Assembly: GCA_958430865.1 (NCBI GenBank)
Contig: CAUDNR010004505.1
Coordinates: 19,498 to 48,391 of the forward strand
Source: Entrophospora sp. SA101
Lineage: Eukaryota; Glomeromycota; Glomeromycetes; Entrophosporales; Entrophosporaceae
Direction of reading: 5' to 3'
Length of the DNA stretch: 28,894 nt
Positions 1,994 through 18,134 of this stretch are shown here, piece by piece. Position 1 is the first letter of the stretch. Every line of letters starts with the position of its first letter. The translations under genes and the position numbers were made by a program. The notes beneath the pieces were generated by a model. It was not told the DNA's origin and did not search any database. It saw only the letters and a list, made by a program, of their open reading frames with translations.

Positions 1994-2984
1994 TCATTCA
2001 ACTTTCCTTTTATTATCATCGCCTTTTACATTAACATAACCATCATCATCATTACCCCCCTTTTCCTCCACCACCACATCATCATCTTCGTCTCCATTTT
2101 GAACAGTGGTGTGAAGATCTTTAGGTTTCTTTTTAATATCATCATTATATCCATCATTTTCATATTGTCCCTCATCCTCATTATAATTATCATGCCCAAT
2201 ATTTTCCCTTTTTTTCGTTTCTTCCCTACCAAAAACCGGAATGAAACTTTCCACAAACCCAACATCTGCAAATAAATTAGGAAATAACCATATCCCAGGT
2301 GGTGCAACAACCAATGTAGTTATAAATAATACCAATCTAAACAAAGATACTAACATCAATACTCCGAACAAACTTAATATTGCTACAGAAAAATACCAAA
2401 CACCATTCCGTATTGAAGATGGCCATAGTGGAAATAATACTGCAACAAAAACAATAGAAACCAATGACAATCCACCTAGTATCATCTTCAATTGAGATCC
2501 TTGGTAGAACCATACATAATATTGATCTTCTTTCCATGTTTGCATTGATGTTATTGCTAAATTTTTAATTCGAGATGATGATGTACTTCCTTCATTACCT
2601 GATCGTTCAGCTCTCAAATAAAATGTATAACTAAGAAGTTCTTCAAGTAAACCATTTGCTTCATTTTTATTATTGATTTTAGGAATGTTCTTTTGTTTGG
2701 AATATGCCTCTTTAAGAAGTTGTTTTATAGCTGCTTTACCTATAATTATAAACAGTTTTTTATTTTATTATTAATCAATTTATAATTTGAGGATTACAAA
2801 CTTTTTTATATAAACTTTTGTTGTAAAAATGTCAAAGTGAAATAAATAAAAGCATGGTTTTTTCTTTACCTTTAAAATAATCAACTCTTTTGCCATTCAA
2901 AATTCCTTGACGAGTTTTTACAGTAGACCTTAAATATTTTGCTACGTTTAAAATTTGTGGGGGGGCTTTAGCTTGATCTTCCAT
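1994..2984 (-). CDS. SEC62: Sec62, ER protein-translocation subunit
   Basis: Two exons, 2984-2870 and 2739-1994, joined across a 130-nt GT..AG intron (donor GGTAAAG, acceptor TATAG) in phase 1. They give a 286-residue protein starting at the ATG at 2984. Sec62 works with Sec61 and Sec63 in post-translational import into the ER. Family signatures are clear: an N-terminal cytosolic domain with TRQGILNGKRVDYFKGK (about residues 24-40) and FYLRAERS (about 77-84), then YYVWFYQGSQLKMILGG, and two membrane segments at about 124-145 and 152-183. The segments are followed by PPGIWLFPNLFADVGF. The C-terminal tail (about 222-286) is very rich in Asp, Glu, Asn and Lys. Length is close to that of fungal Sec62 proteins, and nothing looks broken. 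The start lies only about 100 bp from the foreign-looking block that begins at 3082, so the promoter must be short or shared with that block. Confidence 0.95.
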
Positions 2985-3081
2985 GTTTTCTTTAATTTTT
3001 TAGAAAAATAAATATATAGTTAATTTTGTTTTACGTATGAAGGGTAGGCTCCATATTAATATGTGACACATACGTTAATTA

Positions 3082-3940
3082 GTGCCGATCACGGGATTTG
3101 ATATTTCAAAGAAGCACCAAACTAATTATGATTGAGCCCAAAATGTTCATGTGCCTCATTTAGATCAACAAGTAAGTAAAATTTACTATCTTAGTCCATG
3201 TAAAGTTCATTTATTTGGTATTCAAGATGAAGCAGTAAGGAAGCAAATTAATTATGTTCTTAATGAAGATGAAATTATAGGAAAAGAATCCAATAGAACT
3301 CTTAGTATGATTTTTGATGGAATTAAGAAATTGAAGATTACTTGTGACAATGCTGGGGGGACAAAATAAAAATAATGTAACAATTTGATTTTATTTATAT
3401 TTGGTAATTTGTGGTAATTACAAAAGCATTGAATTAAATTTCATGGTTCCAGGACATACCAAATTCAAATGTGATGGTAGTTTTGGATTGATTAAAAAAC
3501 TCTATAGGAAAACAAGAGTAGATTGTCTGGGCCATGTGGTTGAGGTGATAAAAAGGTCTAGTCCAGCAGGATTAAATAAAGCTCAGTGTTATGAAGGTGG
3601 AAAAGGCTTTCAATACTTAGATATTAAAGCTATTTTGGGAATTTATTTTAAGAAACTAAATGGTTTACAAAAGTATCAACATTTTCTTTTTGAAGCATCT
3701 AATTTTGGTACAGTGAAAGTTCAAGAAATTGCTAATGGACCTTTTGTTGAGTTCAATTTATTGAAAACCAAGAAAGCAGATATTTTTGAAGAAATTAGAG
3801 CTTTATCTATTTTGGTGTTAACACCACCTCCTTTGGATTACAAAAGGCAAGAATATCTTTATCATAATATTCGTCCATTTGTTAGAGATAAATTCAAAGA
3901 TATTACTTGCCCAAGACCAATCTATACTGGAAGTGAATAA
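3082..3940 (+). pseudogene. DUF7869-like protein with in-frame TGA codons
   Basis: One reading frame from about 3082 to 3369, then a +1 shift caused by a six-G run at 3355-3360, then the continuing frame to TAA at 3940. Restored conceptually, it covers about 285 residues. It resembles the DUF7869 family, a mostly eukaryotic, often transposon-associated family of unknown function. Shared landmarks are AQNVHVPH (from 3136), VHLFGIQDEA, TCDNAGGQNKNN across the frameshift, NFMVPGHTKFKCDGSFGLIKK (3431-3493) and a C-terminal region ending TGSE. Two in-frame TGA codons (3133-3135 and 3386-3388) fall where Trp suits the family; the second follows the QNKNN motif, where I recall relatives having Trp. 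No TGG is used. The N-terminal part of the family is missing or lies in unreadable sequence. The family assignment is from memory. Confidence 0.6.
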
Positions 3941-4135
3941 AATATTTAGAATAAAATCACTTTGCCACTTGTTAATTTGTCCCCTTACCATCATTAAATT
4001 TAATCTTTTGACAAATATTTGTTAGCTTTTCCACTTTTAAAGTAAAAAAATACTAAAACAATTTATATACTTAACATACCCTCATAAAAAAGATATAAGT
4101 ATATTAAAAGAATAAATAAAAAAAAAATAACAAAC

Positions 4136-4913
4136 ATGGTAAACATTATAAACAAACAACAACAAGCAAACAAAACACTAATAAATGAAATAGAATTATT
4201 GAAGAAACAATCAGCTGAAAAAGAAGAAAACTTTAAATTAAGAATTTGAAATACTGTTCACAGCCTTACTGAAAGTTCAGAATATTGGAACAAGTTTAAG
4301 TACCTTAGAAAGATTTACTTGACCTAACAATGGTTGAGTAAGTCATCCAAAAAAGAATGGAATTGAAATTGGAAGAGTTGTTTTCAGTGATGGATTCACT
4401 CCTGAAAATTTTGTTAAAAGTTTTGGTAGTGAAGCATTAAATTATGAAGAAGCTTTTGGTTTTACTTACCAAGAAAAAAAGGAATTAAAAGAAAAGAATG
4501 CTGTTTTAGAAGAAAAAGTTGCTGAATTAGAAGCAAAGCAAAAAGAACTGGAAATGAAAGTAGAAGAGTTGGAAGATGAAGTGGAAATGGAGCAAGAGGA
4601 AGCTGAAAAAGCATTAAACACAGCTATGAAGTGGAGAAAATGTCAAATGAATGAAGTGATACTAAAACATGATGCTGCAATGGGCAAACTCTTAAATCAA
4701 ATAGATTTGTTGGAAAATAACTTGTCAGCTAAAAATCAGGAAATAAACTGAAGAGATAATTTGGCAAGCAAAGAATTACCAGCTTTACCAAAACAACAAA
4801 AAGAAAATAGATTACAAAAGTTTAAACAATTAATAAATAAAGCAAAAGGAAAACTAAAGAGAAATTCCAAGCTTTTATTATTCAGAAAAGTAAGTAGATT
4901 AATATGAAATTAG
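4136..4913 (+). pseudogene. Coiled-coil protein readable with TGA as Trp
   Basis: ATG at 4136 opens a Lys/Glu/Gln-rich frame to about 4240. A one-base frameshift then leads into the frame running 4242-4913, which stays open to TAG (4911-4913) only if TGA codes for Trp. The in-frame TGA codons are at 4320, 4335, 4749 and 4905; one TGG is used at 4632. The first part is globular-looking (ERFTWPNNGWVSHPKK, then GRVVFSDGFTPENFV). Heptad-like EKKELKEKNAVLEEKVAEL follows, and an acidic coiled coil continues to about residue 190. The tail is basic (KQLINKAKGKLKRNSK). No known family is recognised. Under the standard code this stretch would be only short broken ORFs. The next frame starts inside its last codons. 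Confidence 0.5.
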
Positions 4914-5293
4914 AATATAGAATTCTGGAAATAGCAAAGGGAGATGAACAAGAGTGTAACTTCTGTTTTCTAGATTTTGATGATTCAACTCTTAATATTG
5001 ATACTGCTCCTGCTATTAATCAAATGGTGGCTTGTAATACTCCTGATGGTTATTCTGACATTGTCTTTGTCTCTGGTGAATGTAAAAATGATTATGATAA
5101 TAATACTCTTCCATGATGTGAGAAATGTGGTAGGTTAAAAAGGAATAGAAACAGGTGTTTTTGTAGCCATTTAAAAATTAAATCAACTAAACCACTTTCT
5201 GACAAAGAACTACTTTCACAAGCTTTTAGTTTTCGCCTAGAAAATAAAGCTAGAGAACTAGAAAAGAGTTATCAATTACCAAAGAAGAATTAA
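4904..5293 (+). pseudogene. Cys-rich (zinc-ribbon-like) protein, TGA as Trp
   Basis: ATG at 4904 overlaps the end of the previous frame by 10 nt. The frame runs to TAA at 5291-5293 if TGA at 5114 is read as Trp: DNNTLP-W-CEKCGRLKRNRNRC. Cysteines cluster in two groups: C-x2-C near the start (ECNFCF, about residues 23-28) and C-x2-C followed by C-x-C after the TGA (CEKCG..RNRCFC). This suggests a zinc-binding fold. The C-terminal end (SDKELLSQAFSFRLENKARELEK) passes by a one-base shift near 5254-5270 into the coiled-coil frame that follows, so the two may once have been one protein. Function unknown. Confidence 0.5.
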
Positions 5294-5511
5294 AAATTGA
5301 AAGAGAAAAAATAGCCAAGTTTCAGGAAAAATTTGAAGAGTGAAGTAAAAAGCAAAAACAGGAATTATTAGATAAGGTAAAGGGTTTAGAAGAAAGAATT
5401 AAACAACTAGAAGAGGAAAACAGGAAATTAAAAGATCAACAGAATGGTCAAATTGCTCAAATTGAAGTTAAAGAGACTAAAAGATGATCTTGATTGAAAA
5501 TGAAAAAGTAG
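5254..5511 (+). pseudogene. Coiled-coil fragment with three TGA(Trp) codons
   Basis: The frame is open from 5254 to TAG at 5509-5511. It encodes an uninterrupted amphipathic heptad pattern (KEELKIEREKIAKFQEKFEE, then LLDKVKGLEERIKQLEEENR). TGA occurs at 5341 (EE-W-SKKQ), 5485 and 5491 (TKR-W-S-W-LKMKK), and there is no TGG. It probably continues the Cys-rich protein at 4904 after a frameshift. Under the standard code it would break into pieces despite the continuous heptad pattern, which supports the TGA=Trp reading. Confidence 0.5.
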
Positions 5512-5568
5512 TTTAAAGAATATTCTGTATAAATTGAAATTCATTTCAACTATCAAAGAAAATGGTAG

Positions 5569-5795
5569 TTATTTTCCTTTTAAAGATTTTTGCTTTTTTA
5601 TTAGGTAATAATGCATCATCATAATGCCAACACTTATTATTTTTCTGTCTTCTTGGTAAATTTCATAAGTAATCCTTTCTTTTCTTAGATAAGCTTCAAG
5701 TGTCTGAGTATCATTTATTTTGAAAATATACGGTACAATTTTTTCACCTTGTCCTTTTTTAAAATACTTCTAATGGTGCTGTAATTGGGTTCCAT
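5569..5795 (-). pseudogene. Decayed minus-strand ORF in the TGA=Trp block
   Basis: From an ATG at 5795 the minus strand reads MEPNYSTIRSILK, then shifts frame near 5762 into KKGQGEKIVPYIFKINDTQT, continuing through YLRKERITYEIYQEDRKIIS to TAA at 5569. An alternative upstream frame reads LLWNPITAPLEVF. The composition is protein-like, but I do not recognise the family. It carries no Trp-position TGA, so it does not itself test the code change. Confidence 0.3.
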
Positions 5796-5906
5796 AGTAG
5801 ACCTAATGTAAATTAATTTCATATTACTATTTTTATATAAGGGGATAGTTCTATATATCACTTAAGATAACAAATGGGTTATTAATTATGATCACATTAC
5901 AAATGA

Positions 5907-6965
5907 CTAAATTTTGATCCCTGAAATTCTTGGTTATACCAATGTTCACTTTGTCTGGTTTTGTTGCAGCATGCCCCATATATCATTCAAAAATATATTT
6001 CCACAGGCGTATTGCTCCAAAAATTTGATATTAAAAAATTAATGTTAATGAACAAAAAACCAATGTTAGTAGCTGTTCTGAAAAAACTAATATTGTAGAA
6101 AAAATAGAGAAGCATATCAAAGGAAAGACAGTATTACTTTTATCTGTTCTATCATCTGTTCTACAGATAAAACTTCCTAATATGAATGATGAAGACTTTA
6201 CTTGTGTCTGTTTGCCAAACCAGATAGTGTAAATTCAAAAAGTTTAGCTGCAGGTATAAAGGAACTTCTTACAGGAAAAAATACTCAAGCGCCTCATCAT
6301 AATTAAAAGATAAAAAACATGATACAGTAACTGACTTATATCCAGTGGAATGGCATGAGGAAGCAGAAGCAAAACCAATCATTGTTGTAGAAGGAAGTAA
6401 TGTTTTATCATATAATGAAATTATAAACATGGCTAATTGAAGATTTATTGTGTGCAGCTGATGACCTCCAGTTAATTTGAAGAATTAAAAGATCTCCTTA
6501 TTATTATAAGATAGTTGGTGAATCCATAAAAGACAGAAGAAACTATGGGAAGGATATTCCTGAAGCCTTTTATTTGTAGACAAACATAACCAAACCATAA
6601 GCACATTCTTCCTACTGAAAAACATGCTGACTAATAAACTTGTCAGAAATTTGATAAGAATGCTGAAAAAATTGCCAAATTCATGGATTTATATTTAACA
6701 ATGAAGAAGAATTCCAAAAGCAGTCAAAAGAAAATAGCTCACTATCTAAAATGAAATCCTATCAACAAAGTGAAAACAGGCCAGAAGGGAAGAAATTAAC
6801 CCTTATTGAATTTATATTTTTGGACTAATTACTACAATGGAAGTTGTTAAATAATTACAAAGTTACGAAATAGGAAAAGAAAATAGCAAGATTACATTAT
6901 ATTGATAGTATATAATGGTGATAACTTAAATTTTGAACCCAGAAATTCTTGGTAGTACGAATGTT
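5907..6965 (+). repeat. Pair of diverged direct repeats
   Basis: A motif of about 42 bp appears twice in the same orientation, at about 5910-5955 and 6927-6970: TAAATTTTGAWCCCWGAAATTCTTGGT followed by a TAC(C/G)AATGTTC core. The copies are about 75-80% alike by eye and lie near the right part of the TGA=Trp block, about 1 kb apart, enclosing the fragments at 6046-6830. They could be duplicated ends of an integrated segment or a repeat of the donor genome. Confidence 0.45.
6046..6830 (+). pseudogene. Decayed ORF fragments, TGA=Trp block
   Basis: A chain of plus-strand pieces separated by frameshifts: EKTNIVEKIEKHIKGKTVLL (from about 6085), FAKPDSVNSKSLAAGIKELL (about 6210-6295), DLYPVEWHEEAEAKPIIVVE (about 6333-6395) through NEIINMA-N, then QLIWRIKRSPYYYKIVGES and KDRRNYGKDIPEAFY. 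Basic/acidic debris ending EGKKLTLIEFIFLD closes at about 6830. Likely Trp TGAs are at 6438 and 6478, and TGG is used once (VEWHEE). Gene identity and number are unknown, and decay is heavier here than at 4136-5511. Confidence 0.35.
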
Positions 6966-7093
6966 CGTATATGAGCAAGGCTACTAATAAATATTATTAT
7001 TACAGTACTATTATTACATTCTAGATTTTTTTTTTTTACAAGAAACAAAAATAAATAAATTTTCTTTCCATCCACTCATTCACCATTATTAAA

Positions 7094-8830
7094 TTATAGT
7101 TCAAACGTTTCATAATGAACTTTAAATAAACAAGTTTCATCACTCTCGATCACAGAAGCATTTCTAACTTTCCTCCTCATTATAGCTGGTCCACAAACAC
7201 CAACTGCAATATCGCCAGCCACATTATATTGTTTAACGTCACGTAATAACAAATTGAAATCAGGTCTACCGAGGAAGAACAATGAAGACAGTGGTGTTGA
7301 TATTGTTGTTGATTTAGTCAAAAATATCTTTACGTTTAATAAATATTTGTTATTTGGTAATGCTCGACTCTTTGATATTAATTCTTGTAATTCAAGTTCA
7401 AACCAACTATAAGAATCTAAGAAAATTTAAAAATTAAGATTAAAACTGAAATCATAATAATGATAATGACGATGATGAAAAATAGTTTACTATTTACCTA
7501 AATGAGGTATTAACCAACAAAAATGGATTGTTTGGGTTTTTAATGGAATATTTGTAAGTTGTCTATTAATTAAATCATTTAATATGCTAATCAGAGGAGT
7601 AACTCCAATTCCTCCACCAATTAACACGACTGTACTATATTGTGCAAAATCAAGACTAGGTTTGCCATAAGGTCCGTCGACTTTTAATTTGAGTGGTGGT
7701 AATAATTGTTGTTGGTGTTGTTGTGATCTGATATACAATTGGTTAGAAAATCCTCCTTGAGATTTCATATGAAAACTTGCCATATTGTTATTATTGTCAC
7801 TATTATGATCATCGTCATGCGCGTTGATAATACTTTTGGAGGAAGAAAATGAAATTGGGTGCCATGCAATCAATGATGTTGGTTGGTTTAAATTTGGTAT
7901 ATTTATAAACATATATTGACCTGCCGAGTAATAATAATTGAAATCAAATACCACTTTTGTTACGTTGGCTTGCATTGCTTCTATCGATATTATTTTAACA
8001 TCCTTATATCCTATCAAAGACCTAATTATTCGATCAATTACATATAATCCAACACCGACACAAGTGAATGTGCTAAAGTTATCATTGTGTAATACGCCGA
8101 ATATCACAAAAAAGATAAAATTAAAATGTGACCAATAAAAAAATTCAAAGAAACGTCTACGAAATAATGGATGAGATGTCAAAAATATTATAAACAATGA
8201 AACATAGGACAAAAATCCCCATAAATTAATTTTATCTAAAAATATTTGTGATAATGAATTGAAGTTTTGTTGCATTTGATATGAACCATGAAATGTTAAC
8301 AACAAAAAAATTGTTTTACCAACCCATCGATGAAATGTGATTAATCTTTCAAATGGTACCCCAAATAATACTACAAATACTGAATTACGCGTTGCCAATG
8401 GAAATACAAATGCTGCATTTGCTAATGCTATATATGCACTTCTATTATATAGATCTGGCACCGTACTAATTCCATCTTGAAATGGTAGATATAAAAATAT
8501 CAGATTCAAAGTAATAAATATCACCAATAATATTATTTCATTTATTGAAATTTCTCCAATTAAAGTGTAATCCAATACATAATTTAATATTTTATATATC
8601 CAAACAGTTATTTTAAAATGTATAGCAGTGTTGTTTTTATTATTATCACTATTATCCTTTACTGTGTCAAATTTTTCTTCATAGGATGGTAAATCCGGTA
8701 ATTCTGGCCATTTTGAACCTGATAATAACAATTTTACTTGACTTATTTGATATATAGCCGAAAGAGCTACTACAATACTTAAAAATGTAAGACATTGGTA
8801 ATATCCCGCTACAAAATTTGGTTCATCCAT
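7094..8830 (-). CDS. Ferric reductase / NOX-type flavocytochrome
   Basis: Two exons, 8830-7498 and 7416-7094, with an 81-nt GT..AG intron (donor GGTAAATAG, acceptor TTCTTAG) in phase 1, giving 551 residues. The ATG at 8830 is the first in frame. The family moves electrons from NAD(P)H through FAD and two haems across a membrane to Fe(III), Cu(II) or oxygen. Several membrane segments lie between about residues 10 and 270. Paired haem-ligand histidines sit at 167/181 and 235/248, with spacings of 14 and 13. An FAD-site HPISFSSS is at 324 after GQYMFINIP (304), the NAD(P)H motif IGGGIGVTP is at 404-412, and VCGP is at 518-521. An Asp/Asn/His-rich insert (about 337-350) and a Gln-rich patch lie in the FAD domain. 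All key residues seem present. Sequence alone does not decide metal reductase versus superoxide producer; high-affinity iron uptake is the default guess. Confidence 0.9.
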
Positions 8831-9195
8831 TGTAAAGGAGTAAAGGAAAAGTTTGATAGGTATGTAGAAATTATGAAAATGAAAGGAAGTTTTTATATGA
8901 GGCCAGCTCAAAAATTATATGTAAAAGAATAAAGGAATGGGAGGAAGAATAAACCAAAAAATTTTATTCGAATTATATATTCAACATATAACATATATGT
9001 GTATGAAAAGAATTTTTATATTCTAGAGTTGAAACACCTAATATTAATATAATTAATATACATCACACGCGTGTAACAATAAAATGATTTTTTTGCAAAT
9101 ATGGTAAGAATGCAAATTAATAATTTTTATTTTTTATAATTTAAGACATAATTAAAATTAAAAATTAAATTAAATAATAATGTAACTATAATTGA
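8831..9195. other. Intergenic region upstream of the reductase gene
   Basis: 365 bp between the reductase start and the 3' end of the kinase-like gene, both on the minus strand. It must hold the reductase promoter and the kinase-like gene's 3' UTR. The sequence is AT-rich with TATA-like stretches (for example near 8973-9000). No GATA-factor site cluster or other specific operator could be established by eye. Confidence 0.4.
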
Positions 9196-11613: not shown

Positions 11614-14001
11614 CAGTGTTGAAAATTCAATCGGCGGGTGTTACGTTACACAGAGCGTGTGCAAAAAAAATTAAATTAATTTCTCCTTGTTTTTTTACAT
11701 TCCCAATTTTCATATGCTTTCAAAAAATCAAAATCCTCAATTTCTGGACCATTTAATAAAATCATTAAATGATCATCTAATGTAATTAGATGCATTTTGT
11801 TCTTCAAATTGTTTTTAATTAATTTCACTTGAGAAAATATTCTTTCTACATGAGCATTAGAAAGAGGTATAAGAAGTGCTATTTTAACAACTAGTAGTAT
11901 AGTTGGATAATTAAAAGAAAAATCGTTAGCAGTATCCAAAATATGGTGCCATAATTGAATAAAATCCATTCCTCCATTATTATTTTTATAGAACTGAAGA
12001 TAAGATTTAACTGAATTCCATTCTTGGTTAAGTTTTTCTTTATCAATGATTTCATTAAATTCATTTCATTTACAAGTTTGATTTCCCCATAAAAATTACC
12101 TAAAATTTCTATTTCTTGATTTCCATACGTGACTAACTCTGTGTCATCATCTGGAAGTTCCTTTGGATCAAAAATACTAAGAGCGTTATATAATTAATAT
12201 TCTGGAAATCTGTTCTTGATGGCATTAATGATTGCAATTGAATATTCTCTAACAAATGATGGAATAAAATTATAGTTATCTTCCAAATGTTTTTGGAATA
12301 TTGTACCATAATTTGGTGGAACTTCTTCAGAACCTATAAATTCAGTTTCAATTGGTTTAATTGTAACATCAAGTTGTAATTTAAAATGAGATATGGATAA
12401 ATGTTCTAACTGGAATGCATTGATTAATTTCTTTAAAATATTTGTTAAATCAGCAAGGTACATTGTTGCTGAAATGAAAGTATCATCTAATTGTTCATAT
12501 AAAATTACTGCAAGTCTATCTCCTTCTTCAATATAATCATTTAGAGTAGACAATACAGATTTCATGATTTTATGTAAATTACTCACAGAATTTGAAAATG
12601 ACAATTACCTAGTATCACACATGTTTAATATTACAAGTGATGGCTCTTTGTTAATTTCCTAATTAAAATGAAATTATTTAATAAAAATAAATGAAAAAAC
12701 AGATTAAAAAATATAAATATAATTACCTGCATCAACTTCAACATTTGTTGTCTTTTATGAGATTTTGAAAAATAATTATACAAATTTTTTAAAGTTTTTT
12801 CATATTTCTCAAAATATATAACATCTTTTGAAGCATCTTTTCCAGCTAGATGAAGTCTATGTGATATACAATGGTTTGAAGTCATAAATGGATTGATTTT
12901 TTTAAATCTTGCTGCAACACCACTTATGTATCCTAATAAAGATGTATTCTCAGTTAAGATAAAAAAAAATACTAAACTTTTACTTAATTAAATATTAATT
13001 CATACCAGTCATATTAGAAGCACCATCACTTCCAAAATGAATAATTTTATCATAAGATATTTCTTTTGAATTACAAAATGTTATAATTTGGTTAAATATA
13101 TTTCACCATCAGTCAAGTCTAGGTTAACTATACCTAAATATCTCATATATGGTATATTATTGATGATATATTTTCCTACTATTGCTAAATATTTGTCATT
13201 ATCAATACTATTGGTTTCATCAATCATTATGCTCCAATAAACTGAGGAATTTAATTCTTCAAAGAGAGATTTTTTAATTGTATAAGCAATACTATCTAAA
13301 AAATCAATACCAGATACATGATTATTATAGTTTCCATATTTTGATTTAGATGGTGATGGTTTTCCTAATGAAGCAGGCTTCAAGGTAGAGACCTTATCAC
13401 TAATTATTAATTCTAGAGATGTTAATTTGCACAAATCAGGATAGGTGTTTAGAGGAATATTATTTTTTGAGCAGCAGTAAATAATTCTCATTAAAGAAAT
13501 AATTTTTAATTTTTCTGTACTAATTCTTGAAGTAACTGGTTTAAGTAATTCTTCTGATTTTTTATGTTCATTGGTTTTCATATGTTCTTTAATTCTTCCT
13601 TACCTTAATGAAGATGTGCCTTTTGCAAATGCTGTTGTCCCATTGCAAATTCTACAAATTCTACAATATAAAATTATATTTCCATTAACAGATTCAGTTT
13701 CCAACCATGGATAATCATCAAACCACTTAGGATCAGCAGCTTTTCTAGTGTGTGATTTTTCAAGCACTTCATCATCAAACAAATCAATGACCATTGGAAT
13801 ATTTGACATTTTAAAATATTTGAAAGAAATCAGTTAATTGTTACTTTGGTAAAAAAATTTTTAGTAAATTTATTTCTGAATGATATTAATTTTTAATTTA
13901 ATTTGTGTATATTAATTAATATTAATATAAATAAATAAATATTTCCGTGCACATGGAAATTTGGTGTAACGTGACACCCGCCGATTGAATTTTCAACACT
14001 G
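11614..14001. mobile_element. hAT-superfamily DNA transposon with intact ends
   Basis: The element is bounded by near-identical terminal inverted repeats of about 38 bp. The left begins CAGTGTTGAAAATTCAATCG at 11614. The right is its inverse ending CAACACTG at 14001. One mismatch is seen (T/C in the GGGTGTYACGTTACAC part). The 2.39-kb interior holds a minus-strand hAT transposase. The 8-bp flanks (TAATTTAA on the left, ACAGTTTA on the right) do not match well, so the target duplication is lost or one flank has been rearranged. Confidence 0.85.
11676..13809 (-). pseudogene. hAT transposase (zinc-finger, ZNF862-like), decayed
   Basis: The ATG at 13809 begins MSNIPMVIDLFDDEV, followed by a TTF-type finger (CRICNGTTAFAKGTSSLR) and a HMKTNEHKKSEE segment. 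The core gives SIMIDETNSIDNDK (first catalytic Asp region), FGSDGASNMTGYISG (second) and NHCISHRLHLA. The C-terminus holds the hATC dimerisation region (SNAHVERIFSQVKLIKNNL), ending in a stop at 11676. At least two GT..AG introns can be inferred (about 13003-12935, and 12726-12661 with acceptor TTTTAATTAG). Damage is light: TAA after GTSSLR (about 13606), TAA in place of the Trp expected after CDTR (about 12607), a frameshift near 13085 and more near 12064 and 12195. The element is recent enough to read through by eye but is probably inactive. Confidence 0.8.
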
Positions 14002-15460: not shown

Positions 15461-18134
15461 CAGTTGACTCTGGCTATACTGAACTCCCTGTCATGAAAAT
15501 TTTCATTTGTTATAGACAGAGTTCGTTATAACCAGCTAACATCTTTGTGTCACATTGCGTGATGGATTTTTTCCAGCAGTGATTGTAGGAAAATTTTATT
15601 CTATTTTATTACCTTGGCAAATATTAATTTTCATTTCTTGATATTAAAGTTTGTAAAAATACAAATTATTTTTATTATCTTATATAATAAAATACATAAT
15701 ACAATAATGAATATAAGATATACAGTACATAATTAGATAAATAGATAGGCTATCATCAAAATGAATTTTAAATGAGATGTTATATGATACATTTAAAATC
15801 AAATATGACATTGGATTTGAATAAAATAAACTGAATCTACTCAATTATTTTATCCTCAAAGTAGTGGTGGAGGCCAGGTTGTTTAAGATTTTTTTGAATG
15901 GCTAATCCAATCCGTCTATTTAATCTTCTCAAAACCCTTATTTCATCATCAACCTCACCAAATTCCAGTTCTTGCTGGTACAAATATTTTAAAACTATAT
16001 CTACCGACTCTCTAGCTACTGCGTTACTTATGATTTCGATTTTTTCTACTAATTCATTTCCTCTTTACTACTCTCCTCCCCTTCTTGGTTTACCATTTCT
16101 ATTATATTTTCATCAGTGAGGCTCATCCAATCCTCAATGTTAATATATTCATTTGCTGAAAGATCTTCACCATTTGGTAACTTTTCAAGCAACATTTCCA
16201 AATCTTTCTCTTCATCCTCATCATTGATACTGGAAGGTTCGACAATTGTTCTTTCTGGAAGAATACCAGTCTTTAACCAGCAGTTGCATATTGTTTGTGA
16301 TGATACATTAGACCATGCATCTGCTGCATTTATTAAAGCATTGTATATGGTATAATCAGCAAGTGCATTTGCTGTGCCATCTTGAAAATCATCATATGCT
16401 TTAATTCAATTTTGAACAAATAGAGTTTTGTATTTACATTTAAAGGAATGAATGATCCCAGCATCACAAGGTTGAAGAAAAGTTGTAGTATTTGGTGGAA
16501 GAAATTCAACTTTTACACTATCCAATTTCTCTGCAGTTTCTTCAAGGATAATATGTACTGGTGCATTATCAATTAGCAATAAAATATTTCTATTTTGTTT
16601 TTTCATATTTTTGTTAAGTGTTAAGAGAATTTCATTAAAAATGCTAACTTGCATCCAAGCAGTCTTATTCCAATAATAATAAATGAGGCAAGTTATTGTA
16701 ATTTAAGTTTTGCATTGCCTGAGGTCTCCGATATTGGTGAATAAAACTAAGTCTCATCTTCTCTGTTCCCAAAGAGTTTTCAGCACAAAAAATTGTAATT
16801 CAAGATTTATCTTTTTTGTGGCCTGATAGTTTATTACAAGCTAAAACACATGAAGGTTCCATCTTCCAAAAGAGACCGGTTTCATCACCATTCCAAATGT
16901 CTTCAGGACTATAAGCACCAAGAGTGTCTGTAGTGAAATTCATTCATTTTCTAATTGCTCAACAGATGGTGCACTTGCAGCTTCACCTTGTTTTGTGAAT
17001 TGACGAAGTCCATGACAATTTTTAAAACCTGTCAACCACCCATCTGATGAATGAAAATCATTGATTGAAAGCTGAGCTGCAAAATATTTTGCTTTCTCTT
17101 TTAAAATATGGCCAGTGATGTCTTGTTGTGCATTAAGTGCATTATCAACCCAAAGACTAAGAGCTTCTTCAAGTTGTGGCCACTTAGGTACACAAAATTT
17201 CTTCAAATCATCCCATTCACTTGTAATGGAAAGCCAATGTTCTTTCTCTTTTAAGATATCAGTAACTGTTGCTTTCCCAATATTGTATTGTATGGCAAGC
17301 TCTGCATTGGATTATTGTTTTTTACCTCACAAAGTTCATGTTTTTGGGAAACAGAAAGACTTGTTCTTTTTTGAGTTGACATATTCATTAATAATGTATT
17401 AATAATTTATTAAGTATGAATTGGCTAGAAATTGAGAGTATTTATAATAATGTATTGGCATTACTAATCATGCAAATTCTTTACAAAAAGCCATGACATA
17501 ATCAAAGTTAATGATGAAATTAAATGTGACGAAATGGGATGTATACACTAGAAAATGATGGAAGTGATGAAAGTGGTGAAAGTTGATGCAAGTGTGATGA
17601 AAATGATGAAAAATGATGATGAATGTTTAAAAATTTGTTTCAAAAATACCTCACACTTGATGAAATATTTTTTGGACATAATAATGATTATTAACATTAA
17701 TACTAACTGACAACATGTAAAAAAAAACTGAATATGCAATATGATATTAATTTGGCAAGATTGATTACATAATGTTACCAGATTAGATAATAATGATTTG
17801 TCAATAAATATTACATCATGTTATACTATTATTAATTTGTTGAACTATGGCGAATGTTACATTTTTGATACAACAAGGTTATTTTTTTTGATGCCTTAAA
17901 ATGTTTATTATTTTATCAGAAAACGAAATTTTTACATCATGTTACACATGATATTATGTAACAGTTCGTTACAGAAAGAGCAAATCAAATATGAAAATTC
18001 AAAAAGATGAGTTTGGATCCATTATAAGCAGATTTATTAATAAAGTTGTTATAAACAGATTTATTAATTATAAAAATTCGGTCATGGAGATTTTGGTTCG
18101 CTATATCCAGAGTTCGGTATAGTCAGGATCAAAA
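15461..18134. mobile_element. pogo/Tigger-like DNA transposon
   Basis: The left end at 15461 (CAGTTGACTCTGGCTATACT) follows a TA dinucleotide. The right end near 18108-18134 is its diverged inverse (GAGTTCGGTATAGTCAGGATC), and longer subterminal sequence also matches (GAACTC..GTTATA / CTATATCC..GAGTTC). The 2.67-kb interior encodes a decayed CENP-B/pogo transposase on the minus strand. Sequence left of 15461 and right of 18124 reads as the two halves of one ORF, which supports a clean insertion. The outermost three bases on the right are not conserved, so the exact end is uncertain by a few bases. Confidence 0.75.
15837..17382 (-). pseudogene. pogo-type transposase (CENP-B HTH + DDE), decayed
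   Basis: The ATG at 17382 gives MSTQKRTSLSVSQKHELCEV, a CENPB_N-type helix-turn-helix. A frameshift near 17308 leads into IGKATVTDILKEKEHWLS and a CENPB second HTH (WPQLEEALSLWVDNAL..GWLTGFKNCHGLRQF, 17180-16985). Catalytic motifs remain: GDETGLFW (near 16880, first Asp), LLLIDNAPVH (near 16565, second) and LQPCDAGIIHSFK (near 16470, third). The C-terminus is acidic and ends FEDKIIE at a stop at 15837. Damage includes frameshifts near 16945 and 16675, a TGA where relatives have Arg (about 16802, consistent with CGA to TGA decay), and stops near 16665, 16406 and 16060. It is inactive. Confidence 0.75.

Follow-up and report, generated by a model that had tools for sequence, protein, structure and literature searches.

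A dispersed transposon-like family with TGA-as-tryptophan genes in the nuclear genome of the glomeromycotan fungus Entrophospora sp. SA101

The DNA analysed here (the window: 28,894 nucleotides, positions 19498-48391 of one contig in the 101.3 Mb, 2123-contig assembly of Entrophospora sp. SA101) carries, between two ordinary fungal genes, one decayed copy of an abundant transposon-like family whose open reading frames (ORFs) use TGA as a codon for tryptophan (Trp). The family encodes a transposase-like protein with the DUF7869 domain (ORF A) and three further ORFs (B, C and D), its copies lie in the standard-code nuclear genome, and its lineage evolved under purifying selection with TGA as a sense codon. 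We propose that it uses both the fungal nucleus and the Mollicutes-related endobacteria (MRE) of these fungi, an explanation that we favour with slightly more doubt than confidence. An earlier sequence-only reading had taken the block for a single fossil piece of MRE chromosome; what we find instead is one member of a repeat family with a precise right end.

Results

The sequence-only reading had placed the block at 3082..6830. The element does lie inside these limits, but it spans only about 3126-5977, as set by other copies (copy homology and right end); the stretch 5977-6830 is outside the shared right end, and the allelic contig C573 carries it at 99% identity. The ten TGAs listed in that reading are all at the positions given, with TGG at 4632, and its frames under genetic code 4 (TGA as Trp) end as claimed, with TAA at 3938 and 5291 and TAG at 4911 and 5509. 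The TGA at 4905-4907, however, is by itself no argument for Trp, as the ATG that opens the next ORF runs into it (ATGA, 4904-4907). The features of the window are the following:

3126..5977, + strand: copy of the dispersed element, decayed and cut short, without its left part (repeat family in own genome, copy homology, right end)
3126..3369, + strand: ORF A, first piece (DUF7869 protein); TGA 3133 is Trp333 of the full-length copy at locus L023 (frames, copy alignment)
3374..3940, + strand: ORF A, second piece, in another frame, carrying the DUF7869 match; TGA 3386 is Trp424 (Pfam, copy alignment)
4136..4913, + strand: ORF B, coiled-coil-like, in frame-shifted pieces 4136-4327 and 4242-4913; TGAs 4320, 4335 and 4749, TGG 4632
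4904..5511, + strand: ORF C, in frame-shifted pieces 4904-5293 and 5254-5511; TGAs 5114, 5341, 5485 and 5491
5569..5797, - strand: ORF D, a small conserved antisense ORF near the right end, frame-shifted here (frame 5569-5769 and ten-copy alignment)
5939..5977, + strand: precise right end ...ATGTTCACTTTGTCTGGTTTTGTTGCAGCATGCCCC
1997..2999, - strand: flanking host gene Sec62 with its own stop TGA (Pfam Sec62, E 6.2e-44)
7094..8914, - strand: flanking host ferric reductase gene (Pfam Ferric_reduct, 3.3e-20)

Pfam PF25273 (DUF7869) is matched by window 3281-3937 with an E-value of 1.4e-12 (48 bits), and ORF A of L023 scores 62.3 bits against a cut-off of 26, which places it in the DUF7869 family. 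The coiled-coil character of ORF B was judged by eye and from weak Pfam matches below the cut-off. ORF D, whose name and start are our own reading, is without Trp and so gives no information on the genetic code.

Within the same genome, window 3082-6830 gives at least 72 match rows on at least 40 contigs, its own included; these searches scored part of the candidates (40 of 2163 for the block, 72 of 1634 for ORF A, 67 of 1000 for the Rhizophagus protein P0023 considered below, and 93 of 1211 and 150 of 392 in two more copy searches, the matches of the latter being listed in part). A 32-mer from the right end is found at 967 genomic places within two mismatches, 100 of them listed, and its reversed control at none. 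Of 23 right ends printed, 20 have distinct flanks, and all stop at GCATGCCC or GCATGCCCC (or GTATGCCC, GAATGCCC). A precise end shared by dispersed copies with different flanks marks a DNA transposon, and by dispersal and its one precise end the family works like one. Left limits differ among the copies and define no target-site duplication. Of eight loci scanned, two (L010 and L023) carry the 13-base inverted motif ACAAAGTGAACAT without mismatch at both ends. Three right-end copies (L070-L072, from eight ends picked among exact matches and not at random) consist of just the final 350-430 bases, and many of the 967 places may be such short derivatives. ORF D is conserved in ten aligned copies and is kept in these three derivatives, which are without ORFs A-C.

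Longer copies hold ORF A frames of 587-607 codons with the DUF7869 domain, followed by ORF B, ORF C and the antisense ORF D; at L034 none of ORFs A, B and C is interrupted under code 4, and ORF B has 11 TGA and no TGG. In the ORF A alignment D411 is invariant and D332 and D453 nearly so, which is only suggestive of the catalytic acidic triad of a DDE/RNase H-fold transposase. Among L025, L026, L034, L036 and L038, ORF B combines a conserved N-terminus with a very variable middle (open frames of about 200-359 codons) and ORF C falls into several subtypes, a variation that looks like module swapping or diversifying selection. A kinase/DUF6826 stretch shared by L009 (7468-9000) and L013 (1003-2538) is a duplicated repeat adjoining element copies; under code 4 it has two neighbouring open frames, of 195-196 and 315 codons, which include TGA codons.

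The reading of TGA as Trp is carried by the comparison of copies. When the window is aligned with its siblings, TGA is kept at 3133 in 9 of 9 copies, at 4320 in 10 of 10, at 4335 in 8 of 10, at 4749, 4905 and 5114 in 15 of 15 each, at 5341 in 14 of 15, at 5485 in 16 of 17 and at 5491 in 17 of 17, while site 3386 has three TGA and seven TGG and site 4632 is TGG in 15 of 15; the rows are partly dependent, L013 and L014 being one sequence. Codon tables were drawn from 22 ORF A, 17 ORF B and 18 ORF C alignments of 27 sequences (the window and 26 loci); they include the reference copies L023 and L019 and leave out gapped codons and pieces shorter than 150 bases. In ORFs A, B and C the columns that are Trp to 80% or more contain 120 TGA, 47 TGG and two other codons, and switch between A and G in the third base much as the Lys, Glu and Gln codon boxes do. 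Over all columns of ORFs A-C the in-frame stops are 173 TGA, 20 TAA and 2 TAG. The pattern at Trp columns is not one of mutation alone, because TGG turns into TAG as easily as into TGA, each by one G-to-A step, yet TAG is almost absent there. Some of the looser ORF B columns mix TGA with AGA, TAT, GAA, TGC or TGT, which counts against plain Trp at those sites, and five cells of the CGA-to-TGA type stand in ORF B columns in which CGA is the most frequent codon.

Two positions of ORF A are particularly clear. Trp237 is TGA in 13 of 13 copies, and each of the 60 aligned proteins that cover this position has Trp; Trp333 is TGA in 16 of 16 copies, and Trp in 39 of 62 aligned proteins (both protein counts include the query and other TGA-class members). 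Deamination of CpG, turning CGA into TGA, is out as the source of TGA at these two positions, where aligned proteins have Trp. The gene models P0005 (Ambispora), P0006 (Gigaspora rosea), P0015 (Geosiphon) and P0016 (Diversispora) are without the stretch around Trp333, a gap that fits, though indirectly, a TGA at that place. In the genome, the at least 76 ORF A matches listed contain 253 TGA, 46 TAG and 119 TAA in frame (totals transcribed by hand from the match table); TGA is the only stop in 26 of the 76, and no listed match is without it. TGA thus occupies conserved Trp positions, exchanges with TGG and is spanned by selection: it is read as Trp in the element ORFs, as the sequence-only reading had proposed for the block.

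Selection was measured as the ratio of nonsynonymous to synonymous divergence (dN/dS) in 17 of the 22 ORF A alignments, with the two invariant TGAs as segment borders. The ratio is 0.14 for codons 1-236, 0.12 for codons 238-332 and 0.18 for codons 334-607, as compared with 0.89 and 1.05 in two shifted frames; therefore selection acted on both sides of the invariant TGAs. Young pairs behave otherwise. Below a dS of 0.05 the pooled ratio is 0.94 for ORF B (6 pairs) and 0.96 for ORF C (7 pairs, some with duplicate sequence), and at dS 0.05-0.15 ORF A gives 0.87 and 0.48 (one pair each), low-dS pairs being partly dependent through the duplicates L013 and L014; ORF A then falls to 0.18 at dS 0.3-0.4 (105 pairs) and 0.14 at dS 0.4-0.6 (50 pairs). 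From a dN of about 0.06 and a dS of about 0.35, our arithmetic puts at least about four fifths of the synonymous divergence before the neutral phase. Most of the synonymous divergence between copies therefore arose under purifying selection on TGA-bearing ORFs, and the latest divergences are close to neutral: selection kept the lineage in order with TGA as a sense codon, and decay followed in the nuclear copies. Judged from these alignments, the copies are draws from a diverse selected pool that decay after insertion. The decay of the block itself, which the sequence-only reading had claimed, is evident from frameshifts and from TAA and TAG codons in the copies, together with the near-neutral youngest divergences.

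The nuclear location of the block, with ordinary fungal genes next to it, was likewise correctly seen. The window copy lies between Sec62, whose main exon has five TGG and whose stop codon is TGA, and the ferric reductase gene, whose main exon has eight TGG and is open under the standard code. Across nine host ORFs of our choice there are 46 TGG and one TGA. Host-type families above the Pfam cut-off (IF-2B, P4-ATPase N, Mcl1, SLC35F) flank 4 of the 20 loci L009-L028, for which 20 ORFs were run, and contig C1452 combines synthetase-like exons without in-frame stops with one element copy. The allelic contig C573 covers window 5846-7500 at 99% with the same right junction, and misassembly at that junction is rejected by it. 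The nuclear genome in which the element copies lie is that of a glomeromycotan and uses the standard code. According to one report, which may concern another assembly, SA101 is Claroideoglomus claroideum/luteum and was sequenced from sorted nuclei (PMC6987183).

Other observations concern the surroundings of the copy. A 40-base direct repeat, 88% identical, at window 5908-5947 and 6927-6966 encloses the right end together with about 1 kb downstream, and a copy on contig C225 matches window 5916-6830 at 96%. Further transposon remains at 11679-13599 and 16052-17311 (- strand) are hAT-like and pogo/CENP-B-like by eye from their translations. Rfam and ARAGORN gave no match in the window.

MRE DNA is present in the same assembly, in agreement with the sequence-only reading. 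Three bacterial 16S genes were found, the MnmA gene of contig C1138 encodes a protein 69% identical to that of DhMRE and 61-67% to GvMRE (61-70% to named MRE overall), and tRNA synthetase genes whose in-frame stops are all TGA, 7-15 per gene, lie on C293, C624, C792, C1138, C1204, C1611, C1734 and C2013; with C923 these make up the nine recognised MRE contigs. MnmA proteins named after Ambispora, Cetraspora, Racocetra and Funneliformis (P0302, P0308, P0312, P0317) look like MRE contamination, and P0291, named after Entrophospora sp. SA101, is likewise an MRE-contig protein (the C1138 MnmA match). Contamination of this kind has been reported (PMC11423566). The 30 loci that an MnmA scan of GTDB contigs yielded all belong to Bacteroidales-type genomes, none to MRE.

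Protein relatives of ORF A were found in other fungi, and none in GTDB contigs, viral contigs, plasmids or phages. In a tree of 64 proteins, P0001, P0026 and ten proteins from metagenomes, Ambispora and Geosiphon form one clade at protein level, separate from those of Rhizophagus and Gigaspora rosea. Over 274-409 or 228 residues, the copies of Ambispora (P0005), Geosiphon and Diversispora share 90-94% identity, and a second and a third Ambispora model are 85-90% (P0011) and 70-76% (P0013) identical to the Geosiphon and Diversispora copies. For the standard-code relatives the corresponding values are 75% between two Rhizophagus species and 68-70% between Gigaspora rosea and Rhizophagus. Ambispora, Geosiphon and Diversispora belong to different families or orders, and the similarity of their copies suggests that the element spread horizontally between hosts. 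The phylogeny of MRE is reported not to follow that of the hosts (PMC10507103).

Nuclear DUF7869 elements such as Rhizophagus irregularis GLOIN_2v1484099 (P0023; 36% identical to ORF A) share the domain and a similar length with ORF A and have relatives dispersed in this genome. With P0023 as an internal control, the two classes differ in their stops: 13 of the 69 P0023 matches listed have no in-frame stop, 12 of these exceeding 360 codons, whereas TGA occurs in all 76 matches listed for the TGA class. Judged by their absence from the latter list, the 12 long stop-free matches would form a separate standard-code class. Other P0023 matches contain TGA as their only kind of stop, 2-5 times, and a few more have a single TGA. 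Stop-free matches were found on C18, C396, C1393, C1033, C896, C944, C864, C1592, C1061 and C1019, and it is possible that such copies are the transposase source that acts in trans on the TGA class.

Discussion

The element ORFs have to be translated where TGA means Trp, and the MRE, present in the assembly with TGA-rich tRNA synthetases, are the obvious candidate readers of this code. We suggest that the ancestors were ordinary standard-code nuclear DUF7869 transposons, which would have moved into a compartment with TGA=Trp translation; the MRE of the fungal cytoplasm are the likeliest candidate. The element proteins would be made in that system, and element DNA would pass repeatedly into host nuclei, where insertions would accumulate, lose CpG and decay. 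This use of both nucleus and MRE is the tentative explanation introduced above. A wider claim, which we regard as doubtful although worth stating, is that of a trans-kingdom shuttle: a eukaryote-type element residing mostly in methylated nuclear DNA, expressible only in a TGA=Trp system and passing between fungal orders, that system being either the cytoplasmic endobacteria or an unrecognised UGA-reading state of the fungus, with selection under a code that is not the host's.

Several results weigh against a role of the MRE. The observed/expected ratio of CpG is 0.06 in ORF A and 0.16 in ORFs B and C, compared with 0.83 in six MRE ORFs and 0.89 in MRE flanks; host genes have 0.44, and of eight repeat-like nuclear stretches that we chose, seven (two being one sequence) have 0.09-0.30 and one has 0.68. 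TpG stands at 1.27-1.28 and CpA at 1.11-1.29 in the element. CG occurs in at least four copies at 3 of 1772 ORF A sites, where about 39 CpGs are expected, and sites holding both TG and CA are hardly more frequent than those of a control pair (33 vs. 29 in ORF A, 4 vs. 5 in B, 3 vs. 5 in C). CpG depletion is therefore ancestral, being present in the selected lineage and not just in dead copies. Codon usage is nearer to the host (0.11-0.15) than to MRE (0.20-0.21), in comparisons that, like those of CpG, cover nine host and six MRE ORFs of our choice. None of the copies listed is on the nine recognised MRE contigs, a weak point because the lists are incomplete and because about 230-250 listed protein matches in 101 Mb predict, by a rough estimate, little over one in about 0.6 Mb of MRE DNA. 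The relatives of ORF A number 272 and those of ORF C 237; neither list of the best 120, in which most proteins are unnamed, includes one named after MRE, although DhMRE and GvMRE proteins are in the database searched. The operon-like spacing of ORFs B and C, the start of C being a few bases from the stop of B in four of five copies inspected (L034 is the exception), is a point in favour of the MRE, but close spacing is seen in some eukaryotic elements and viruses too. Neither contig location, with the weakness just given, nor composition and codon usage, relative to the six MRE ORFs, agree with MRE chromosomal DNA, and the element is therefore not classed as such: the MRE origin assigned to the block by the sequence-only reading gives way to a fit with nuclear repeats. 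The selected lineage accordingly bears both the mark of nuclear repeats, taken here as methylation, and translation with TGA as Trp. A shuttle between nucleus and MRE explains the two together, if long stays in methylated nuclear DNA account for the loss of CpG (methylation being assumed); decoding of UGA in the host cytosol would explain them as well.

That latter view has the transposon live in the nucleus alone, without a stage in bacteria, its UGA codons being read as Trp in the host cytosol through a suppressor tRNA or strong readthrough. It agrees with CpG loss and codon usage like those of host nuclear repeats and genes, and with many copies of which, among those listed, none is on MRE contigs. 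We nevertheless consider it rather unlikely: the nine host ORFs use TGG in 46 cases against one TGA, Sec62 ends in TGA, weak readthrough would be insufficient for an ORF B with up to 11 TGAs, and the same genome holds the 12 long DUF7869 matches without any in-frame stop. ARAGORN found no tRNA gene in 29 loci, and two pattern searches for a UGA-reading tRNA returned nothing tRNA-like, nor the expected tRNA of the MRE themselves, so that the positive control was missed. The fungal mitochondrion, as the source of a plasmid or mobile DNA jumping into the nucleus, is improbable. Fungal mitochondria do read UGA as Trp, and the preference of the element for AGR over CGN arginine codons (151 to 15) is common there; against this, no relative was found in viral, plasmid or phage records, and to our knowledge the eukaryote-type DUF7869 family does not occur as a mitochondrial plasmid gene. 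A COX1 search of the assembly gave no match.

We give hardly any credence to two further explanations. A standard-code element decayed by changes of TGG to TGA, an alternative raised in the sequence-only reading, would account for the TAA, TAG and frameshifts of the copies and for the few ORF B columns that mix TGA with non-Trp codons; it is rejected by the codons at Trp columns, by the stop counts and by dN/dS values of 0.12-0.18 on both sides of fixed TGAs. An assembly artefact, with endobacterial DNA misjoined to fungal contigs, gains something from the MRE contigs in the assembly and from the contamination described in PMC11423566, but copies lie on many contigs, in five places (window included) with host gene families in the flanks, one right end is joined to different flanks, and C573 repeats the right junction of the window.

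The proposed use of both nucleus and MRE can be set beside known systems. With MRE (Candidatus Moeniiplasma; DhMRE, GvMRE) the element shares TGA as Trp, preferred by them 14 to 4, as well as the fungi and the assembly; it differs in CpG, in the Arg CGN codons common in MRE and rare in the element, and in location. Nuclear mitochondrial DNA segments (NUMTs) and other organelle-to-nucleus fragments are similar in that foreign-code frames decay in a nucleus. NUMTs, however, are random fragments of a whole genome, whereas here one element with a precise right end has its end sequence at 967 places. Gene traffic from fungus to MRE is reported for MGMT and kinases in PMC10507103, which involves the same partners and single genes, in contrast to a mobile family massed in the nucleus. 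A literature search gave no title on a TGA=Trp transposon in the nuclei of these fungi, and none on DUF7869.

For those who work with these genomes the family is a warning, as standard gene models break or skip such genes (P0005, P0006, P0015, P0016). It also makes exchange between MRE and nucleus testable, and offers a marker for horizontal movement between fungal orders. An abundant nuclear repeat selected in a code that is not the host's would, if this is true, directly show a recurrent flow of DNA from a TGA=Trp compartment into fungal nuclei, on a scale far beyond that of single gene transfers.

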